From: Desulfolithobacter dissulfuricans
GTDB lineage: Bacteria > Desulfobacterota > Desulfobulbia > Desulfobulbales > Desulfobulbaceae
Length of the DNA stretch: 64,000 nucleotides
Reading direction: 5' to 3'
Assembly (NCBI RefSeq): GCF_025998535.1
Contig: NZ_AP024233.1
Span: 1,463,219 to 1,527,218 of the forward strand
The number at the start of each line of letters is the position of its first letter. Within the stretch, counting starts at the first letter, position 1. Positions 49,835-60,532 of this stretch are shown piece after piece. The position numbers were made by a program, and so were the translations under genes. Under the pieces are notes generated by a model. That model saw only the letters and a program-made list of their open reading frames with translations. It did not search any database and was not told where the DNA came from.

Positions 49835-51193
49835 TCACAGGGAGTTGACGGCTCTTTTATGCAGATAGACCAGCCCCTTGGACATAAGCGCCTTGTACAA
49901 CGACGGTCCATCAAGGTGCCGGCAGTGCCGGTGGCTCCGTGTCCTCATAAAGCGACTGAACCGGGTCTGCACGTACCAATCAATCTTCTTGAACGACACC
50001 TTCGGGTATCCGAAGGAAAAGTAGTTGCCCCAGCCAATCAGAAATCGATTGACCTGATCAATTACTTTTTCTACCGGCTCTTGAATCCTGCGAATCGTCA
50101 GAGCATGTATCCTCTCCCGCGCCCGTTTCAGGCTCTTGGCAGAAGGGACAATGTTCAAATACCGACCCGCTCCGTACAGACTGCGATCAAAGCGGAACGT
50201 AAATCCAAGGAAATCAAAACTACTGCCGGGATCTTTCAAGTTAACTATGGTTGTCTTGTTCCGATTCAGGATCAGGTCGAGTTCCCCCAGCGTCTTGTCA
50301 ACAAAGGCGTGAATGCGAGGTCCGATGTACCGAGCCATGATAACCCAGTCGTCGGCATATCGTACCAGCCTTGCGTTGGCAAAATTGCGGGGACCTTCCG
50401 GGCTGTGAAAGCGTTGGTCGAATTCATGGAGAAAGATGTTGGCCAGCAGAGGCGAGATGACTCCACCCTGTGGCGTACCCTTGCGGGAGCGAGTGATCTT
50501 GCGACCGCCCTGCCCATCCTCTTCAACGATATCGCTTTTCAACCACATCCTGATCAGCTTCAAAACGGATCGGTCAGCTATTCGACGCTCCAGGCATTGC
50601 ATCAGTTTGCCATGGTCAATCGTGTCAAAGTAGCTGCTCAGATCCGCATCCAGGACTTCAGTAAATCCCGCCTTGAGCGCCTGCCGAATCGCGGCGAGAG
50701 CATCATGGGCCTTAAGGCCCGGGCGGAATCCGTACGAGCAGTCCTCAAAGTCTGCCTCGAAAATCGGCTCCAGGATCAACAGGACCGCCATCTGTACAAC
50801 CCGATCCTTGACGGTCGGGATACCCAGCGGACGCATCTTTCCATTCGCCTTTGGGATATAGACCCGTTTTACCGGCATGGGCCGGTAGGTCTTATCCTTC
50901 AATTCCTGCTGTATTGTTTGCAGCAGGCCTGCTACACCTTCCGAACTCTCCTTGATGGACGCAAGGCTTACTCCATCCACCCCGGCAGCGCCTCGATTGG
51001 CGTAAACCCGGTTCCAGGCACTTTGCAGTACATCTAGGCGATACACCCGGTCGTACAGGGCATAGAATCGAAACTCCGGTTCCTGCTTGGCCTTGTGGCC
51101 CAGTTTCTTTCGCAAGAGGGAGACCTTCGGGCTCAGGCCGAACTCCTGCCCTGCCCGTTTATCCGTAGTGGGAGACAAACATGTGTACTCCAA
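49835..51193 (-). CDS. ltrA: Group II intron reverse transcriptase/maturase
   Basis: Intron-encoded protein of 452 residues. Reverse transcriptase blocks include [70 protein letters not shown] and the catalytic RYADDWVI. The C-terminal maturase X domain ([28 protein letters not shown]) is complete. No zinc-type endonuclease domain follows, so it probably uses replication forks for insertion, as known for En-less relatives. The frame is intact. Confidence 0.93.
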
Positions 51194-52881: not shown

Positions 52882-53742
52882 TCATGCTGCAAGACCGGTA
52901 AAGAGGCCCAGTTCTTCGATGGCGGCCAGGGATTGCCACAGCCCTTCCTCGGTGTGGGGTTCCAGGGTGATAATCGGTGCCCTGTTCGATGCCTTCAGGT
53001 GGTCAAACAGACCCTGGAAGTCGAAGCTTCCCCTGCCAATGGCCAGATGGTCATCGCCGCCGGTGTTATTGTCATGCAGGTGAAGCTGGCCCAGCCAGGG
53101 GCCAAGCTCGTCCATCCATGGTTGCCACGGGGCACGGGCAAAGGCCTGGAGATGACCGGTATCGAGACAGAAGCCAAGATGGCTGCAGTCCAGTTTTTCA
53201 AAGAGTTTCCTGTGCACCGCCGGGCTTTTTTCATAGGTGTTTTCAAACATGACCCGGGTCCCGTTTTTCATGGCAATGGTAAGGAGCGTTTCCCAGGTAT
53301 GGAGGGCATTATCGAACCAGGTGGAAAATTTTCCCAGGTGCTTGTTGTCCTCATAGCCTAGGTGGCAGACAATGGATCTGGGCGCAAATACCCCGGTTAA
53401 CTGGAAGGCGCGGCGGAGTTTTTCCCGGGAAACCTCGCGGATTTTCGGGTCTAAGGCACCGGGAGAAAGATCGAAGAACGGGGCGTGCAGGGTGCAGCGC
53501 AGTCCGGCCTTGCCAAGGGTCTCCGCCAGGGCGGCAAATTCCTTTTCCTCCACATCCCACAGGCAGCCGCCCTCAAGACCGATTTCCGGCTGTAACCGGT
53601 GTCGCAGAAACAGGTCCAGCAGTCCGGTACCAAGGAGATCGAACGGTGCATTGATGAAGCAGCGGCTCTTTATGTGCTGAAAAGAGCCAGGATCTCGCCC
53701 GGTATTATCCCAGGTATGGTCAGCTTTACTCGACGGTTTCAA
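52882..53742 (-). CDS. TIM-barrel sugar-phosphate isomerase/epimerase family protein
   Basis: A 286-residue AP-endonuclease-2-like TIM barrel, predicted metal-dependent sugar isomerase or epimerase. Ligand-type residues are seen in CTLHAPFFDLSP, VCHLGYEDNKH, VMFENTYEKSP, GFCLDTGHL, QLHLHDNNTGGDDH and ITLEPHTEE. The start is probably the TTG at 53742, which overlaps the last codons of the upstream HMA gene, so translation is likely coupled. It is the last gene of the oxidoreductase operon. Substrate unknown. Confidence 0.75.
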   Translation of the reverse strand: MKPSSKADHTWDNTGRDPGSFQHIKSRCFINAPFDLLGTGLLDLFLRHRLQPEIGLEGGCLWDVEEKEFAALAETLGKAGLRCTLHAPFFDLSPGALDPKIREVSREKLRRAFQLTGVFAPRSIVCHLGYEDNKHLGKFSTWFDNALHTWETLLTIAMKNGTRVMFENTYEKSPAVHRKLFEKLDCSHLGFCLDTGHLQAFARAPWQPWMDELGPWLGQLHLHDNNTGGDDHLAIGRGSFDFQGLFDHLKASNRAPIITLEPHTEEGLWQSLAAIEELGLFTGLAA

Positions 53743-54028
53743 CTTTTTTGACCGGGAAAAAGTCTTTATCCAGCGCTGTTTTCATATCTGCCACTTGTAC
53801 TTTTTCGTCGTCATAGGTGACAAGGGCCATATGCTCACCAATGTCAGTGTGGACCTTGATGACGCCATCCAGCTTTTTCAGGGTAGCCCGTACCTTGTAG
53901 GCAGATCCGCCTCAGGTAATACCTGGCACAAAAAGCCTGACCGATCGGGTGGCGGCAAGAGCGAAAGAGAGGGAGACAAAGGAAAATATCAGCGTGAAGA
54001 GGAACACGACAAGATGTTTTTTGCCCAT
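53726..54028 (-). CDS. Exported HMA-domain protein with in-frame UGA (candidate selenoprotein)
   Basis: A 100-codon frame with one internal TGA (53914-53912, codon 39) and a TAA end. Signal peptide residues 1-26 (MGKKHLVVFLFTLIFSFVSL, then SFALAA). Next VRLFVPGIT, the UGA, then GGSAYKVRATLKKLDGVIKV, HTDIGEHMALVTYDDEKVQV and a C-terminal VADMKTALDKDFFPVKKVE: a MerP-like heavy-metal-associated fold complete on both sides of the UGA. The normal motif is GITCxxC; here the first Cys position is UGA and the second is Ser (TCT). A SECIS-like hairpin follows. Read as selenocysteine this is a small periplasmic metal-binding or redox protein; the alternative is a nonsense mutation. It follows the ferredoxin subunit gene and overlaps the isomerase gene. 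Confidence 0.75.
53879..53897 (-). promoter_or_regulatory. SECIS-like hairpin downstream of the UGA
   Basis: On the minus strand CAAGGTA and TACCCTG (one A-C mismatch) close a 5-nt loop CGGGC, 21 nt after the UGA. Bacterial SECIS elements are expected 16-37 nt after the UGA with a small apical loop carrying G in its first two positions; this hairpin meets those conditions. It lies inside the coding sequence as is usual in bacteria. Confidence 0.6.
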
Positions 54029-54276: not shown

Positions 54277-55083
54277 TTACTCCTTGTCCTCCTCCTGCAT
54301 GGATTTCACCAGCAGGGAACCGGCAATGCCAAGCATTCCGAGATCGCGGATCTGCTTCATGGCCGGCTGCATCATCTTGGCCAGCATGATCCGGCGAGTG
54401 GATGCTTCGGGCATCTCTTGCGGTGCCTGGGCCTTGAGCAACTCAATATCCTTCTTTTTGGAACCATAGTACCGGCTGTTTGGCCCGATCTGCACATTTT
54501 TGGAGGTTAGGCCAAAGGCGCCTTTCTTGACGTATTTGGATACCTCGGAGTTGGGATCGGTCAGGTCACCGAAGATCCGGGCCCCGGCCAGACAGGTCTG
54601 GACGCAGGCAGGCTGCAGCCCTTCAGCAACCCGGGGCATGCAGTAGGTGCATTTGTCGGCCTTGCCTTCGGACTCGTCGTCGGCCAGGTCAGGATTGACG
54701 TAGCGGGCGCCATAGGGACAGGCATCGGCGCAGGCGCCGCAACCCATGCAGCGGGTCTTGTCGATCTGGACGGTACCGTTGAAGGGATCCTTCCAGGTGG
54801 CGGCGATTTCCATGGTCTTGGTTTTACCGGTCTTGACATCCTTGAAGGTGGCCTCGACCGGATCGGCCGGGCAGACGTCCACGCAGGCCGGCTTGTCGCA
54901 GTGATTGCAAAGGCCCGGGTAGAAGGTGAAAGCCAGCTCGCCGGTGGATGTTTTTGCCGGGCCAAGGCGGTAGACCCAGTTCCGGCCAAACTGCGCCGGC
55001 ACCTCCCACTCAGCCTTGCAGGCAATGGTGCAGGCATGGCAGCCCACACATTTGTCTATATCGATAATCATGCCATATTGCAT
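54277..55083 (-). CDS. Four-cluster ferredoxin subunit of a molybdopterin oxidoreductase (PsrB/DmsB-like)
   Basis: Electron-transfer B subunit, 268 residues. It has the four Cys-rich segments of this family: CVGCHACTIACKAEW, CNHCDKPACVDVCP, CMGCGACADACPYGAR and CTYCMPRVAEGLQPACVQTC. No signal peptide is present, so export would be by co-transport with the Tat-directed A subunit. A C-terminal extension (about 55 residues) ends in a weakly hydrophobic stretch (IRDLGMLGIAGSLLVK) that could contact the membrane. Gene follows the A subunit by 60 bases. Confidence 0.9.
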   Translation of the reverse strand: MQYGMIIDIDKCVGCHACTIACKAEWEVPAQFGRNWVYRLGPAKTSTGELAFTFYPGLCNHCDKPACVDVCPADPVEATFKDVKTGKTKTMEIAATWKDPFNGTVQIDKTRCMGCGACADACPYGARYVNPDLADDESEGKADKCTYCMPRVAEGLQPACVQTCLAGARIFGDLTDPNSEVSKYVKKGAFGLTSKNVQIGPNSRYYGSKKKDIELLKAQAPQEMPEASTRRIMLAKMMQPAMKQIRDLGMLGIAGSLLVKSMQEEDKE

Positions 55084-55143
55084 TTGGATATACCTCCTGA
55101 ATTTATCGTCTTGTCATCTCTTGCCGCGTTGTCCGCAGCAGGA

Positions 55144-57357
55144 TCAGCTTGCCTTGACAAGCCGGACAAAGTTATTGCGCATGCCGCTGCAACCGGTTTC
55201 CGGGTCAACCGCCAGCTTGGTGATCAGGCTCTGATCATCGACACCCTGGTTGTAACCCACCGTGAGCTCCGGGTTCATGGAGCCAAAGCCGTGGTACATG
55301 TAGACCGCGTCTTCACGGATACCCGGCGTAACCTTGACCGTGGTGGTGGTGCGGGATTTGACCCCGTCCTGGTTGACGAAGCTGACCCGGTCACCATCAC
55401 GCAGTCCCAGTCTTTTGGCAACCTTGTCGTTGACCCAGACCGGATTTTCAGGCATGGCGGCATGGAGCCAGACGTTGTTCTGGGTCCGGTTGAAGGTGTG
55501 GACCGGAGCCCGGCCGTACAGGAGGCGCATGTAGCCGGCCGGCGGCTCTTCCACCGGGATATAGGTGGGAATGGCCGGGAATCCTTCGTCTTCCAGATCC
55601 TCGTTGGCGAAGTTGACCGTGAAATCCTCGGAAATTCCGTAGGGATCCTTGCCCGGCTGGATATGGATGCCGTCTTCGGCCTTCAGCTTGGCAATGGACA
55701 GACCGGCACCGGCCAGGATCTTGTCGACCATCTCTTCCTGGCTCTGGACCGGAATTTTGTCACCGTAGCCCATCCTCCGGGCGATCTCGTTGGTGATCCA
55801 GACACCGTCCTTACGCTCGAAACCAGGGTCAACCAGTGGCATACGTGCTGAGACATACTGCTGATGCTTGTCAGCAAAGTTCCACTGGGTGCCTTTCTTG
55901 ATATAGTCGTAGCGCTCGAGATAGGAGCACTCGGGCAGCAGGATGTCGGCGAACATGGTGATGTCGGTGGGCATGACATCGACACACATGACAAAGTCCA
56001 TCTGCTTGAGCATCCGGATGGTCCGCTGCTGGTTGGGAATGGTCTGGATCGGATTCTGACCCCAGATCACGCAGCCCTTGATCGGGTAGGGGTCGCCGGA
56101 CAGGGCGGCATCACGGATCAGCTCGGTAGGCGTTCCTGGAGGAGCAAAGGGATATTTACCGGCAATCTCCTTGAGATTTTCTCCTTCATGCTCGCCATGG
56201 GGCCAGCTCACCTTGCCAAAACCCTTGGGACCCTTGGGTTTGACAAAACCACCCTTGACGCCGTAGGCACCAAGAACACCGGTCAGGCAGGCCAGGGAGC
56301 GCTCGCGCTGGAAGTCGTTACCGTACCAGGAAACGTGACGGCCGGGGTGGATGGAAACGTTGGGCGCATTGGCGGCCAGCAGGTCAGCCACTTCCTTGAT
56401 CTGGGAGGCCGGAACATCACAGATGGCGGCGGCTTTCTCCAGAGTCCATTCGCTGATACCCTCGGCCATGGTCTCAAAACCTTCACCGTGCTCTTCGACA
56501 AATTTTTTGTCATACTTGTCGTTCTGGATCAGGTAGTTCATGATGGCCAGCAGGAATGCGGTGTCGGTACCGGGCTTGATCTTGACCCAGATATCGGCCT
56601 TGCCGGCCGAGGCGGAAAAACGGGGATCAACCACGATCAGCTTGGCGCCGTTTTCCAGGCCCTTGAGATACCGTTTCAGATGCGAGACATGCACGTTTTC
56701 GCCGAAATGGCCACCGAGCAGCATGATGACCTTGGCATTGGGCATATCCACATTCTCGCCGGGCGCGGTACCTATAGTGGCAACATAGGCCGTATCCCGG
56801 ATACCGCGGCACTGAAAGAAAGAGGCCTCGGATACGTTGGGTGTGCCAACGGTTTTCTCAAAAAAGTGCATGGGGTACTTGGCCGAGGCGCCATGGGGGA
56901 ACATGGCCAGGCCGTGGGGTCCGTACTTGTCGACAATCCCTTTGAGTTTGCTGGCGCATTCGTTCAGGGCCTCTTCCCATGAAATCCTCTTCCATTTGGG
57001 CGCCCCACGTTTACCTACGTTTTTCAGGGGGTATTTCAGCCGGTCCGGATCGTAGAGCAGCTTGATGCCGGCGTTACCGCGGGCACAGATGGCTGTCCCG
57101 TTGTCAATGGATTTGGGGTTGCCTTCAAGTTTTACCAACCGCCCGTCGCGGACCTTGCCCACAAGCTGGCAACGCCAGAAGCACATCTCGCAGATTCCAC
57201 CGACCGCAGTTTTGGTGTCCTTGAAGCTTCCCGGCGGGATCAGCGGTGTCTTGACCACACCGGTCTCAGCTTTGGCCACCACTTTGGAAAGTGGCACGCT
57301 TGCCGCGGCAAGAGAGGCGGTTTTCAAAAAATTCCGCCTGGTCAGATTAATTGCCAT
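55144..57357 (-). CDS. Tat-exported molybdopterin oxidoreductase catalytic subunit (PsrA/PhsA-like)
   Basis: A 737-residue DMSO-reductase-family enzyme that carries bis-MGD molybdenum or tungsten. Tat signal MAINLTRRNFLKTASLAAAS (TRRNFLK). The Fe-S ligands are Cys56, Cys59, Cys63 and Cys91. The following GTPNVSEASFFQC region should carry the metal ligand, and the C-terminal DRVSFVNQDG segment is the molydopterin-binding domain. It resembles polysulfide, thiosulfate and tetrathionate reductases; the true substrate is open. It begins right after torD. No NrfD-type membrane subunit gene is nearby. Export depends on Tat; the only tatC in this window is frameshifted. Confidence 0.9.
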   Translation of the reverse strand: MAINLTRRNFLKTASLAAASVPLSKVVAKAETGVVKTPLIPPGSFKDTKTAVGGICEMCFWRCQLVGKVRDGRLVKLEGNPKSIDNGTAICARGNAGIKLLYDPDRLKYPLKNVGKRGAPKWKRISWEEALNECASKLKGIVDKYGPHGLAMFPHGASAKYPMHFFEKTVGTPNVSEASFFQCRGIRDTAYVATIGTAPGENVDMPNAKVIMLLGGHFGENVHVSHLKRYLKGLENGAKLIVVDPRFSASAGKADIWVKIKPGTDTAFLLAIMNYLIQNDKYDKKFVEEHGEGFETMAEGISEWTLEKAAAICDVPASQIKEVADLLAANAPNVSIHPGRHVSWYGNDFQRERSLACLTGVLGAYGVKGGFVKPKGPKGFGKVSWPHGEHEGENLKEIAGKYPFAPPGTPTELIRDAALSGDPYPIKGCVIWGQNPIQTIPNQQRTIRMLKQMDFVMCVDVMPTDITMFADILLPECSYLERYDYIKKGTQWNFADKHQQYVSARMPLVDPGFERKDGVWITNEIARRMGYGDKIPVQSQEEMVDKILAGAGLSIAKLKAEDGIHIQPGKDPYGISEDFTVNFANEDLEDEGFPAIPTYIPVEEPPAGYMRLLYGRAPVHTFNRTQNNVWLHAAMPENPVWVNDKVAKRLGLRDGDRVSFVNQDGVKSRTTTTVKVTPGIREDAVYMYHGFGSMNPELTVGYNQGVDDQSLITKLAVDPETGCSGMRNNFVRLVKAS

Positions 57358-57957
57358 TTACGGTTCCTCCTTGGTGAAAAAATCTATTAAATCAACAGAC
57401 ACCTTGTAAAACGGGTGTCCTGCCTCGTTATGAACCCGTTGGTAGAACTGTTCAAACCAGGGACGGAAAAGCCGGCGCAGAAACTCTTCAGTCTTCTCCA
57501 GCCGTCCTTCCCGGGCCAGCTGAGCAAGAAATTCAAGTTCATGCATGATGTGGTCGGCCGGTTCAGTTTCATCGGCCAGATCAAAGCCGCATTGCCGGTA
57601 GAAATCCCTGGTCTCTTCTGTCAGCTTGCCCTGGAGACTGCCGGCACCGCCCACGTATATCGACCCATAGGGCGGGGCAATGACATGGGGTATGGCGTTT
57701 ATGAACAGCCTGGTGTATTCAATCTGCAGGGTTTCAAGTGGGTTGTTATCCTGCTGGAGCCAAGTGCCTAACTCCCTGGCCTGGGAGTCCCGGTCGAGGG
57801 AGTGGAGCAGGTCCTGGAAGGTGACAAGGAATTCCTGATCGAGAAATGCGGGGTCTGGATAACGCATGCACAGCGCAAGAAAGCCGTACACTTCGGCAAG
57901 ACCATTTGCGTCATCGCTCCCCGGTGTTGATTCTGTGGCAGAGTCTTTCGGTATCAT
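57358..57957 (-). CDS. torD: TorD-family redox enzyme maturation chaperone
   Basis: Cytoplasmic chaperone that binds the Tat signal and apo-enzyme of molybdoenzymes until cofactor is inserted. The 199-residue all-helical protein has the family features LAEVYGFLALCMRYPDPAFL, LQIEYTRLFINAIPHVIAPP-YGS, and EPADHIMHELEFLAQL. It is the first gene of the operon and abuts the catalytic subunit. No ribosome binding site precedes the ATG, and the -10 hexamer is only six bases away, so the mRNA may be leaderless. Confidence 0.9.
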   Translation of the reverse strand: MIPKDSATESTPGSDDANGLAEVYGFLALCMRYPDPAFLDQEFLVTFQDLLHSLDRDSQARELGTWLQQDNNPLETLQIEYTRLFINAIPHVIAPPYGSIYVGGAGSLQGKLTEETRDFYRQCGFDLADETEPADHIMHELEFLAQLAREGRLEKTEEFLRRLFRPWFEQFYQRVHNEAGHPFYKVSVDLIDFFTKEEP

Positions 57958-58144: not shown

Positions 58145-58358
58145 ATTTCTGACTGACAATACCGCTGCGAAAACAGCCTTGAAAACCGTCCATGGGAATG
58201 TGGATAATCCGCCTTATGACCCCCTGGGTGGGAGACTGTGCTGATGATCGAGGCGGGCGAAATAATGTCTGAACTGCGAGGCGGGCGTACGTGCACAGAA
58301 GTCACGCGCTGTTTTTCGCTTCCACGGACAACCGGACCCGAGGTTGAGGAGAAGGGAG

Positions 58359-58787
58359 ATGAAGATACTCACGGCGCCGCACATGGAGCGGTGTATAGGC
58401 TGCCATTCCTGTTCGCTGGCCTGCGCCAGGCTGGTGCACAAAAAACTTTCCTGGGAAAGCGCCGGGATCCGCATCCGCTCGGCAGGGGGGCTGTCCACCG
58501 GATTTTATGCCGTCCGCTGCCTTGGCTGTGCGGATCCGTTCTGCGTCGCGGCCTGTCCCACCGGGGCCCTCATCCGGCGGCGTGGCGGAGGGGTGCTGCT
58601 GCGGGAAAAGAAATGCATCCAGTGCGGCGATTGTGTCCAGGCCTGTCCGGTGGAGGGGATTGTCCAGGACAGGGACGGACGGATTTATGTCTGCCTTCAG
58701 TGCGGGCAATGCGTGGACTACTGTCCCCATGACTGTCTGGAGATGCGTGAAGCCAGGAGTGTGGAGCCCGGGGAGGTGATTGCATGA
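58359..58787 (+). CDS. Ferredoxin-like 4Fe-4S electron-transfer protein, partner of AOR
   Basis: A 142-residue protein with four Cys-rich groups: CIGCHSCSLACARL, CLGCADPFCVAACP, CIQCGDCVQACP and CLQCGQCVDYCPHDC. It belongs to the ferredoxin subunits coded beside aldehyde:ferredoxin oxidoreductases. No signal peptide, so cytoplasmic. Start at 58359 follows GGAGAAGGGAG; an ATG five codons upstream is rejected. The stop overlaps the AOR start (ATGA). Confidence 0.88.
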   Translation: MKILTAPHMERCIGCHSCSLACARLVHKKLSWESAGIRIRSAGGLSTGFYAVRCLGCADPFCVAACPTGALIRRRGGGVLLREKKCIQCGDCVQACPVEGIVQDRDGRIYVCLQCGQCVDYCPHDCLEMREARSVEPGEVIA

Positions 58788-60532
58788 ACAGGGATCATTT
58801 CAGGGTGCTGGTGGTTGATCTGGATACCGGTCAGAGCCAGGTGGAGCAGTTCGATGGCCGGGATCAGGCCATCGGCGGTTCCGGGCTTGCCGCCCTGCTT
58901 TTTGAAAAATACGGCCGGAAGGACAGGCCATGGAGCCACGCCGACCAGCCCTTTATCCTGGCCATTGGTCCCCTCACCGGGGCCTTTCCCCTGATGAGCA
59001 AGACCGTGGCCGCCTTCAAGAGTCCCTACCATGACCAGTACACCGAGAGCCATGCGGGCGGCCGGTTGGCCCTGGCGCTCCGGTTCGCCGGATACGATGG
59101 CCTGGTCGTCACCGGCTGCGCCCCCGGACTTTCCATCCTGGAACTGGGATCACGCCATATCCGGATTCGGGATGCCGGTTATCTTCGCGGTATGGATGCT
59201 TACGCCACCGGCAAGCTGCTCAGGAGAATACATCCCGGCGGTTCCGGGCACCGTTCCATCCTCCGTATCGGTCCGGCCGGTGAATGCGGCCTGGCCATGG
59301 CCTGCATCAATGTGGACACCTACCGCCATTTCGGTCGGCTGGGCGGCGGGACGGTGCTGGGAAACAAGAATATCAAGGGCATCATCATTCAGGGGGACAG
59401 TGGTTTTTCCCTGCCCGAGGGCAGCGACTACCAGAAACTCTTTGCCACTGTCTATGAACAGGTTACGGCCACCAACATGATGCAGAAGTATCATAACCTG
59501 GGAACGGCGGCCAACCTCCAGGTCCTGGATGATCTCAAAGCCCTGCCCTGGCGTAACCTGCAGCAGACAAGCGACCCCGAGACCATAACCGGGGTCAACG
59601 GTGAGACGTTTGCCGACAAGACGCTGCTCCGCAATGGAGCCTGTTCCGGATGTCCGGTGGGCTGCATCCACATCGGGTATGTACGGGAAAAATTTCACCA
59701 GGACAACCGCTACTTCTATCGTCAGGTGGCCTACGACTATGAACCCATCTTTGCCTGTGGCACCATGCTGGGGCTGGGCAACCCGTTTGAGGTCCTCGGG
59801 ATCATGGATGAGATGGAGAAGATGGGCCTGGACGCCATGTCCGGCGGGGTAGCCCTGGCCTGGGCCACCGAGGCCCTGGAGCAGGGACTGGTCTCGGTCC
59901 GGGAAACCGGGGTAGAGCTGCGTTTCGGCGATGCGGCGGGCTACCGGCAGGCGGCGCGGATGCTGGGAACCGGGGCCAATGATTTCTACACCCTGCTCGG
60001 TCAGGGCACCCTTCGGGCGGCCGAGGCCTATGGCGGCCGGGACTTTGCCTGTGTGCTGGGCCAGGAGATGGCCGGCTACGCCACCGGCGAACTTTTCTTC
60101 GCTGCCCAGTCCCTGGGTTTCCGTCATTCCCACCTGGATACCGGCGGCTACTCCTATGATCAGAAGCATGCGGAAAAGGATGTCGACCGGGCGGTGCAGT
60201 TCCTGCTCGATGACGAGCCGGGTCGGGTCCTGCTGACCTCCATGGTGGCCTGCCTCTTTGCCCGGTCCATCTACACGGAGGAGATGCTTGCCCGGTGTCT
60301 TGACGTTCTGGGCTACGAAACCCTGGCTGGAAATCTCCCGGAGCTTGGCGAGCAGATCCGGTGCCACCGCTGGCGACTGCGGTTTGCCACCGGTTTCAGG
60401 CCCGAAGATGTCACCATTCCAAAACGATTCTACCGGGTGCAGACCTGGAAAGGGCCGGTGGATCCCGCCTATCTGGACCAGCTGCGGACCAGGTATATAG
60501 AGGCTCTGCGGGCGAGGGTCGAGCCTGATTAA
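58784..60532 (+). CDS. aor: Aldehyde:ferredoxin oxidoreductase (tungsten type)
   Basis: Oxidises aldehydes to acids with ferredoxin-type electron transfer; uses a tungsten bis-pyranopterin. The 582-residue protein has the AOR_N segment with pterin contacts (GPLTGAFPLMSKTVAAF, GGRLALALRFAGYDGLVV, NKNIKGIIIQG) and the Fe-S ligands Cys287, Cys290 and Cys294 (CSGCPVGC) plus Cys490 (SMVACLFA), a spacing nearly identical to Pyrococcus AOR. Substrate range is not evident; an acyl- or aryl-aldehyde is possible. Overlaps arfB by four bases at the 3' end. Confidence 0.93.
   Translation: MNRDHFRVLVVDLDTGQSQVEQFDGRDQAIGGSGLAALLFEKYGRKDRPWSHADQPFILAIGPLTGAFPLMSKTVAAFKSPYHDQYTESHAGGRLALALRFAGYDGLVVTGCAPGLSILELGSRHIRIRDAGYLRGMDAYATGKLLRRIHPGGSGHRSILRIGPAGECGLAMACINVDTYRHFGRLGGGTVLGNKNIKGIIIQGDSGFSLPEGSDYQKLFATVYEQVTATNMMQKYHNLGTAANLQVLDDLKALPWRNLQQTSDPETITGVNGETFADKTLLRNGACSGCPVGCIHIGYVREKFHQDNRYFYRQVAYDYEPIFACGTMLGLGNPFEVLGIMDEMEKMGLDAMSGGVALAWATEALEQGLVSVRETGVELRFGDAAGYRQAARMLGTGANDFYTLLGQGTLRAAEAYGGRDFACVLGQEMAGYATGELFFAAQSLGFRHSHLDTGGYSYDQKHAEKDVDRAVQFLLDDEPGRVLLTSMVACLFARSIYTEEMLARCLDVLGYETLAGNLPELGEQIRCHRWRLRFATGFRPEDVTIPKRFYRVQTWKGPVDPAYLDQLRTRYIEALRARVEPD

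Follow-up and report, generated by a model that had tools for sequence, protein, structure and literature searches.

The window analyzed here, a 64,000-nucleotide stretch of the Desulfolithobacter dissulfuricans genome, carries on its minus strand a gene (positions 53726 to 54028; 100 codons followed by TAA) that very probably encodes a selenoprotein, in which a single in-frame UGA would be read as selenocysteine (Sec). UGA is usually a stop codon, and Sec is a rare amino acid. This reading is drawn from the sequence, namely from the Sec machinery encoded in the genome, the conservation of the UGA, a covarying predicted SECIS and the constraint on the part downstream of the UGA. In the proposed mechanism, SelB and Sec-tRNA would decode the UGA at codon 39 with help from the hairpin that closely follows it. 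The small HMA-fold protein so made would be exported, and its one selenocysteine would lie at the N-terminus of helix 1, in the place occupied by the first metal-binding Cys in MerP or CopZ. We further consider it rather probable that the gene belongs to a large uncatalogued family that has turned the HMA metal-chaperone fold into a single-selenolate protein and uses one SECIS register for both its C-x-U-x-x-[S/T] and its C-x-x-U forms.

The TGA (53914-53912, minus strand; residue 39) was the sole internal stop of the 54028-53726 frame and took the place of the first metal ligand in the HMA loop. Translated with TGA as U, the frame gives MGKKHLVVFLFTLIFSFVSLSFALAATRSVRLFVPGITUGGSAYKVRATLKKLDGVIKVHTDIGEHMALVTYDDEKVQVADMKTALDKDFFPVKKVETVE, with PGITUGGS in the loop. 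Residues 1 to ~26 (53951 to 54028, minus strand) were read from the sequence as a signal peptide, with a charged start, a hydrophobic core and an ...SFALAA end, the cleavage site being placed by eye; AlphaFold2 modelled a helix (5-15) of low pLDDT in this region. Residues 32-87 (53768 to 53935, minus strand) were assigned by Pfam and AlphaFold2 to an HMA domain of the ferredoxin-like beta-alpha-beta-beta-alpha-beta type. The Pfam HMA (PF00403) match to these residues spanned the UGA (E=1.2e-11; 45.3 bits, above the gathering cut-off of 24.8 bits), and the AlphaFold2 model displayed a confident HMA fold (mean pLDDT 85, ~95 over the domain), in which residue 39 immediately precedes helix 1 (40-51) and for which the best match among solved structures was MerP (1osd; TM 0.90 by target length). 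The exported HMA frame of 100 codons with one UGA described in the first-pass annotation was thus borne out. The C-x-x-C metal site of HMA proteins was absent from the window protein, U-x-x-S standing in its place, and the protein contained no Cys, so that no thiol-like group other than the selenol would be present.

The check for selA, selB, selC and selD suggested by the first-pass annotation was carried out on the host genome (one contig, 3.6 Mb), and SelA, SelB, SelD and tRNA-Sec were all found. The tRNA-Sec scored 73 bits (cut-off 47) and SelB, in a 641 aa frame, 380 bits (cut-off 242), and both SelA (637 bits) and SelD (352 bits) were above their curated cut-offs. SelD of the host carried an in-frame UGA of its own at the active-site position (GUAAKLGP), the known Sec position of this enzyme. 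Since tRNA-Sec, SelA, SelB and a UGA-containing SelD are all encoded, the host is able to make selenoproteins and very probably does so.

A first search of the phylum retrieved roughly twelve HMA-like proteins containing a single TGA, which lay within the metal loop in those read on the correct strand, and profile searches yielded many further UGA genes in the classes of genomes G360 and G138. In the class of G138, a manual row count gave 104 match rows with exactly one TGA and 0 with TAA or TAG, and U was located in the loop in all of the about thirty loci read. Such exported HMA-like proteins, each with a single UGA interrupting the frame in this loop, were present in many families of the phylum and in more than 100 related genomes. 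Two main layouts were recognized, P-x-C-x-U-x-x-[T/S] and P-G-C-x-x-U; the window protein and those of G192/G220, G372, G492 and G611 follow the first one minus its Cys. All 14 diverse members aligned for the first layout, whether they had the Cys or not, shared U in one column and Ser/Thr at +3, and the "missing" second Cys of the window protein is thus a signature of the family. The first-pass annotation had rightly read Ser at the second Cys place, but the exceptional status it gave to U-x-x-S did not hold. The search for homologues across Desulfobacterota that it had also suggested showed the UGA kept at the same site, with the downstream part mostly constrained.

These observations bear on the alternative that the gene is a pseudogene, left when a recent nonsense mutation to UGA disrupted a MerP-like HMA gene, because such mutations would not strike the same site again and again in many families, and always as TGA. 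The patchiness of the gene in the window's own class, where three UxxS-type genes were found among 258 genomes, would be compatible with a pseudogene. No close relative was found in the window's own GTDB family, and the closest relative found was about 44% identical, so that the window gene has no sister sharing the same UGA and its outside match is at the family level. A sense codon at the Sec site was seen in only a handful of family genes, none of which was shown to have Cys there. Among the siblings of the UGA genes, the codon was replaced by GGA in G502 (L064) and by TCA in G649 (L138), indicating that Sec is not strictly kept; the G502 sequence retains the hairpin, and thus reads as a loss of Sec. 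G502 also has a TGA early in the signal peptide and may be decaying.

Starting 21 nt after the UGA, a predicted bacterial SECIS hairpin, CAAGGUA-CGGGC-UACCCUG, was located at 53879 to 53897 (minus strand; apical loop 53890-53886), which confirmed the CGGGC-loop hairpin reported in the first-pass annotation. Bacterial SECIS elements are described as having a loop of 3-9 nt that carries G within its first two positions and a stem of 4-16 bp, at 16-37 nt from the UGA (PMC13188914); the window hairpin, with 6 pairs and one mismatch, agrees with this rule in loop, G position and spacing. The energy threshold used was a minimum free energy of -7.5 kcal/mol or below; the hairpin alone gave about -3 kcal/mol, and a 52-nt stretch folded at -11.5 kcal/mol with the hairpin's four inner pairs kept inside a larger structure. 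When stretches were folded in isolation, the minimum-energy structure was not this hairpin, and single-sequence folding of three stretches lent it no support (z 0.58, 0.58 and -1.38), two of them folding no better than shuffles. Taken alone, the window hairpin is weak, more so than most of the family, and on its own energy it would fit a pseudogene; its significance is comparative.

After most family UGA codons, a hairpin of 7 pairs with a loop of 5 was found in a fixed register from 21 nt past the UGA, and in the C-x-x-U form, in which the UGA comes one codon later, it started at 18 nt. At least 6 of the 7 pairs were formed in this register in 34 of the 40 UGA genes (window included), as against 6 of 137 CxxC HMA controls and 2.2% of shuffles. 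In an alignment of 31 sequences, compensatory double changes were observed on all 7 pairs and 89.9% of cells paired. This level was reached by 0 of 500 shuffles, a count that is not a probability because the alignment rows are related to each other, and sliding the partner strand lowered pairing to 30-48%. RNAalifold recovered the same helix unprompted, and G at loop position 2 was invariant across the family hairpins. A nonsense mutation would not bring along a covarying hairpin in register. Given that this kind of gene occurs in more than 100 related genomes, and that nearly all of those read have the same hairpin, the family is considered to be a real selenoprotein family.

The part downstream of the UGA was also found to be intact. 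When the window row (L009) was left out of the family HMM, the window protein scored 81.7 bits as a whole and 61.0 bits with the post-UGA part alone, and shuffles of that part reached at most 11.6 bits among those listed. This agrees with the earlier description of a frame coherent on both sides of the UGA and again disfavors a broken gene, which we regard as highly improbable. The dN/dS values after the UGA ranged from 0.06 to 0.62 in eight of nine close pairs, the ninth (1.03) showing no constraint. In a 29-row tree, the window protein grouped with 16 UGA rows apart from 12 CxxC HMA rows (support 97/99), and in a 104-row tree with few columns it fell near the middle and was not firmly placed; both trees rest on few columns. 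The central claim of the first-pass annotation, a Sec-containing exported HMA protein, is therefore supported by the presence of SelB and tRNA-Sec, the conservation of the UGA site and the downstream constraint.

Among known systems, MerP (TIGR02052; PDB 1osd, 1afi) resembles the window protein in being exported, in its length of about 90-100 aa and in its HMA fold, and TIGR02052 gave the best NCBIfam score (58.5 bits), which did not reach the cut-off of 92.55; MerP, however, binds Hg by C-x-x-C, whereas the window protein has U-x-x-S and no Cys, and no mer operon was seen. The UxxU metal-binding (seleno)protein NF041115 is likewise HMA-like with Sec at the first metal position, but it has two Sec residues (U-x-x-U), with Ser/Thr at the second position here, and the window protein scored 41.6 bits against a cut-off of 95. 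The HMA-like Sec domain is also shared with the MerT/CopZ fusion-like selenoprotein NF045683 and with putative mercuric transport selenoproteins, although NF045683 is a membrane fusion some 235 residues long, on which the window protein scored 21.8 bits (cut-off 375). A 2008 GOS survey named a selenoprotein "Mercuric transport protein MerP", giving no motif or domain and counting no Cys homologues (PMC2398784). Compared by name and description only, this protein may be a relative of the present family, in which no Cys was seen at the Sec site either; the name is absent from the 2026 table and from the compared passages of the 2022 table. The public contig scan retrieved nothing beyond CxxC HMA domains, those of P-type ATPases among them, and the listed plasmid matches were all MerP.

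No HMA protein with a U-x-x-[S/T] motif was present among the 119 prokaryotic selenoprotein families listed in the 2026 inventory (PMC13188914), and none of the six family members scanned passed any model of NCBIfam 20.0. The family is uncatalogued in these two resources. Because few sense-codon genes were seen and none was shown to have Cys, standard searches for Cys/Sec pairs would tend to miss it. If the reading is true, an abundant exported selenoprotein family is added, with more than 100 genomes in the sample of one phylum, and ordinary gene calling cuts its genes short at the UGA. It would also offer a direct test of the role of Sec in a metal-chaperone fold without the second metal ligand, and bacterial SECIS models could usefully be trained on the SECIS alignment, in which every pair has compensatory changes.

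With regard to function, the single reactive selenolate would take part in periplasmic redox chemistry, by forming mixed selenylsulfides or by carrying selenium or sulfane sulfur. We infer that such selenolate redox or sulfur-transfer chemistry is the most likely action, a tentative preference placed narrowly ahead of metal binding, because the mature window protein lacks Cys and U-x-x-[S/T] replaces the metal-chelating C-x-x-C. Two points were counted for the redox reading. One is that UxxS and UxxT recur elsewhere among selenoproteins, for instance in rhodanese-like, GPX-like, OsmC-like and arsenate reductase proteins (PMC13188914); the other is that in G492, a genome of the window's order, CcdA/DsbD-like and TlpA-like genes closely follow the gene on its strand. 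In G192/G220, the gene has thioredoxin-like, rhodanese-like and YeeE-like genes nearby; the neighbors in these genomes, assigned by eye, are only hints. A serious competitor, only slightly less favored, is that the protein acts in the manner of MerP as a soft-metal (Hg, Cu, Ag) chaperone or scavenger with the selenolate as ligand, as would befit the HMA fold, the closeness of MerP both as a family model and as a solved structure, the position of U at the first metal Cys and the existence of Sec versions of metal-binding HMA proteins (NF041115, NF045683). With one selenol, no Cys and Ser/Thr as the second ligand (in all 14 members compared), however, classical two-thiol chelation is impossible within one molecule, and no mer or cop genes were recognized beside the UGA genes examined.

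The redox or sulfur-transfer action was also weighed against a dedicated role for an adjacent molybdoenzyme. Upstream of the HMA gene, a PhsA/PsrA-like set comprising a TorD-like chaperone, a catalytic subunit and an Fe-S subunit lies at 54277 to 57957 (minus strand), and a 248-nt gap separates the Fe-S subunit gene from the HMA gene on the same strand. The HMA protein could thus be an accessory of this sulfur/oxyanion reductase, delivering, for example, sulfur or selenium. This appears unlikely, for the molybdoenzyme set was not beside the UGA gene in any relative examined; neighbors there included, in several cases by eye, a porin with a 520-aa exported protein and a mannose-1-phosphate guanylyltransferase, besides the CcdA/TlpA and thioredoxin/rhodanese/YeeE genes. 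Since neighbors differ in this way, linkage to a molybdoenzyme does not characterize the family, and the operon proposed in the first-pass annotation is weakened by this and by the gap. No conserved gene neighbor indicating function was found among the relatives examined. Downstream, a CbiR-like TIM-barrel frame (52882 to 53742, minus strand; NF041277, 95.3 bits, just below the cut-off of 105) has a TTG start overlapping the end of the HMA gene, and is probably co-transcribed with it. A pattern search revealed no sigma-70-type promoter and one terminator-like site, within chance expectation.

Several minor observations were made on the surroundings and on related genes. In the window, a 452-aa frame resembling a group II intron reverse transcriptase by eye (49835-51193, minus strand) lies just downstream of dnaE, and an Fe-S protein gene with an aldehyde ferredoxin oxidoreductase-like gene (58344-60532, plus strand) lies near the HMA gene; a similar pair near the UGA gene of G660 (L169) possibly occurs by chance. 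In the class of G360, UGA genes in several genera (L052, L169, L172, L174, L175, L185) were repeatedly located close to genes for a porin-like protein, an exported protein of ~520 aa (ALLPFVIY...) or both. In the window's family or order, the site is taken by Thr, Ser or Asn in exported HMA-like proteins without Cys (L011, L066, L074), which may represent losses or a separate group; L074, L098, L011 and L066 have no Cys at the metal site, and L074 and L098 have at least two paralogues near one another. An exported HMA-like protein of canonical spacing (L097; G591:C18:348-587, minus strand) reads GMTCDLU, with Sec at the second metal Cys, and its relative in G628 (L079) reads GMTCNLC, giving a Sec/Cys pair in the window's class. 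Finally, six loci (f70; L127, L130, L131, L157, L158, L160) have one loop UGA in NLPxGxUxEPQDRI or VPSGCUGEPQDRI, with a different +3 residue, and this variant carries a near-perfect SECIS.
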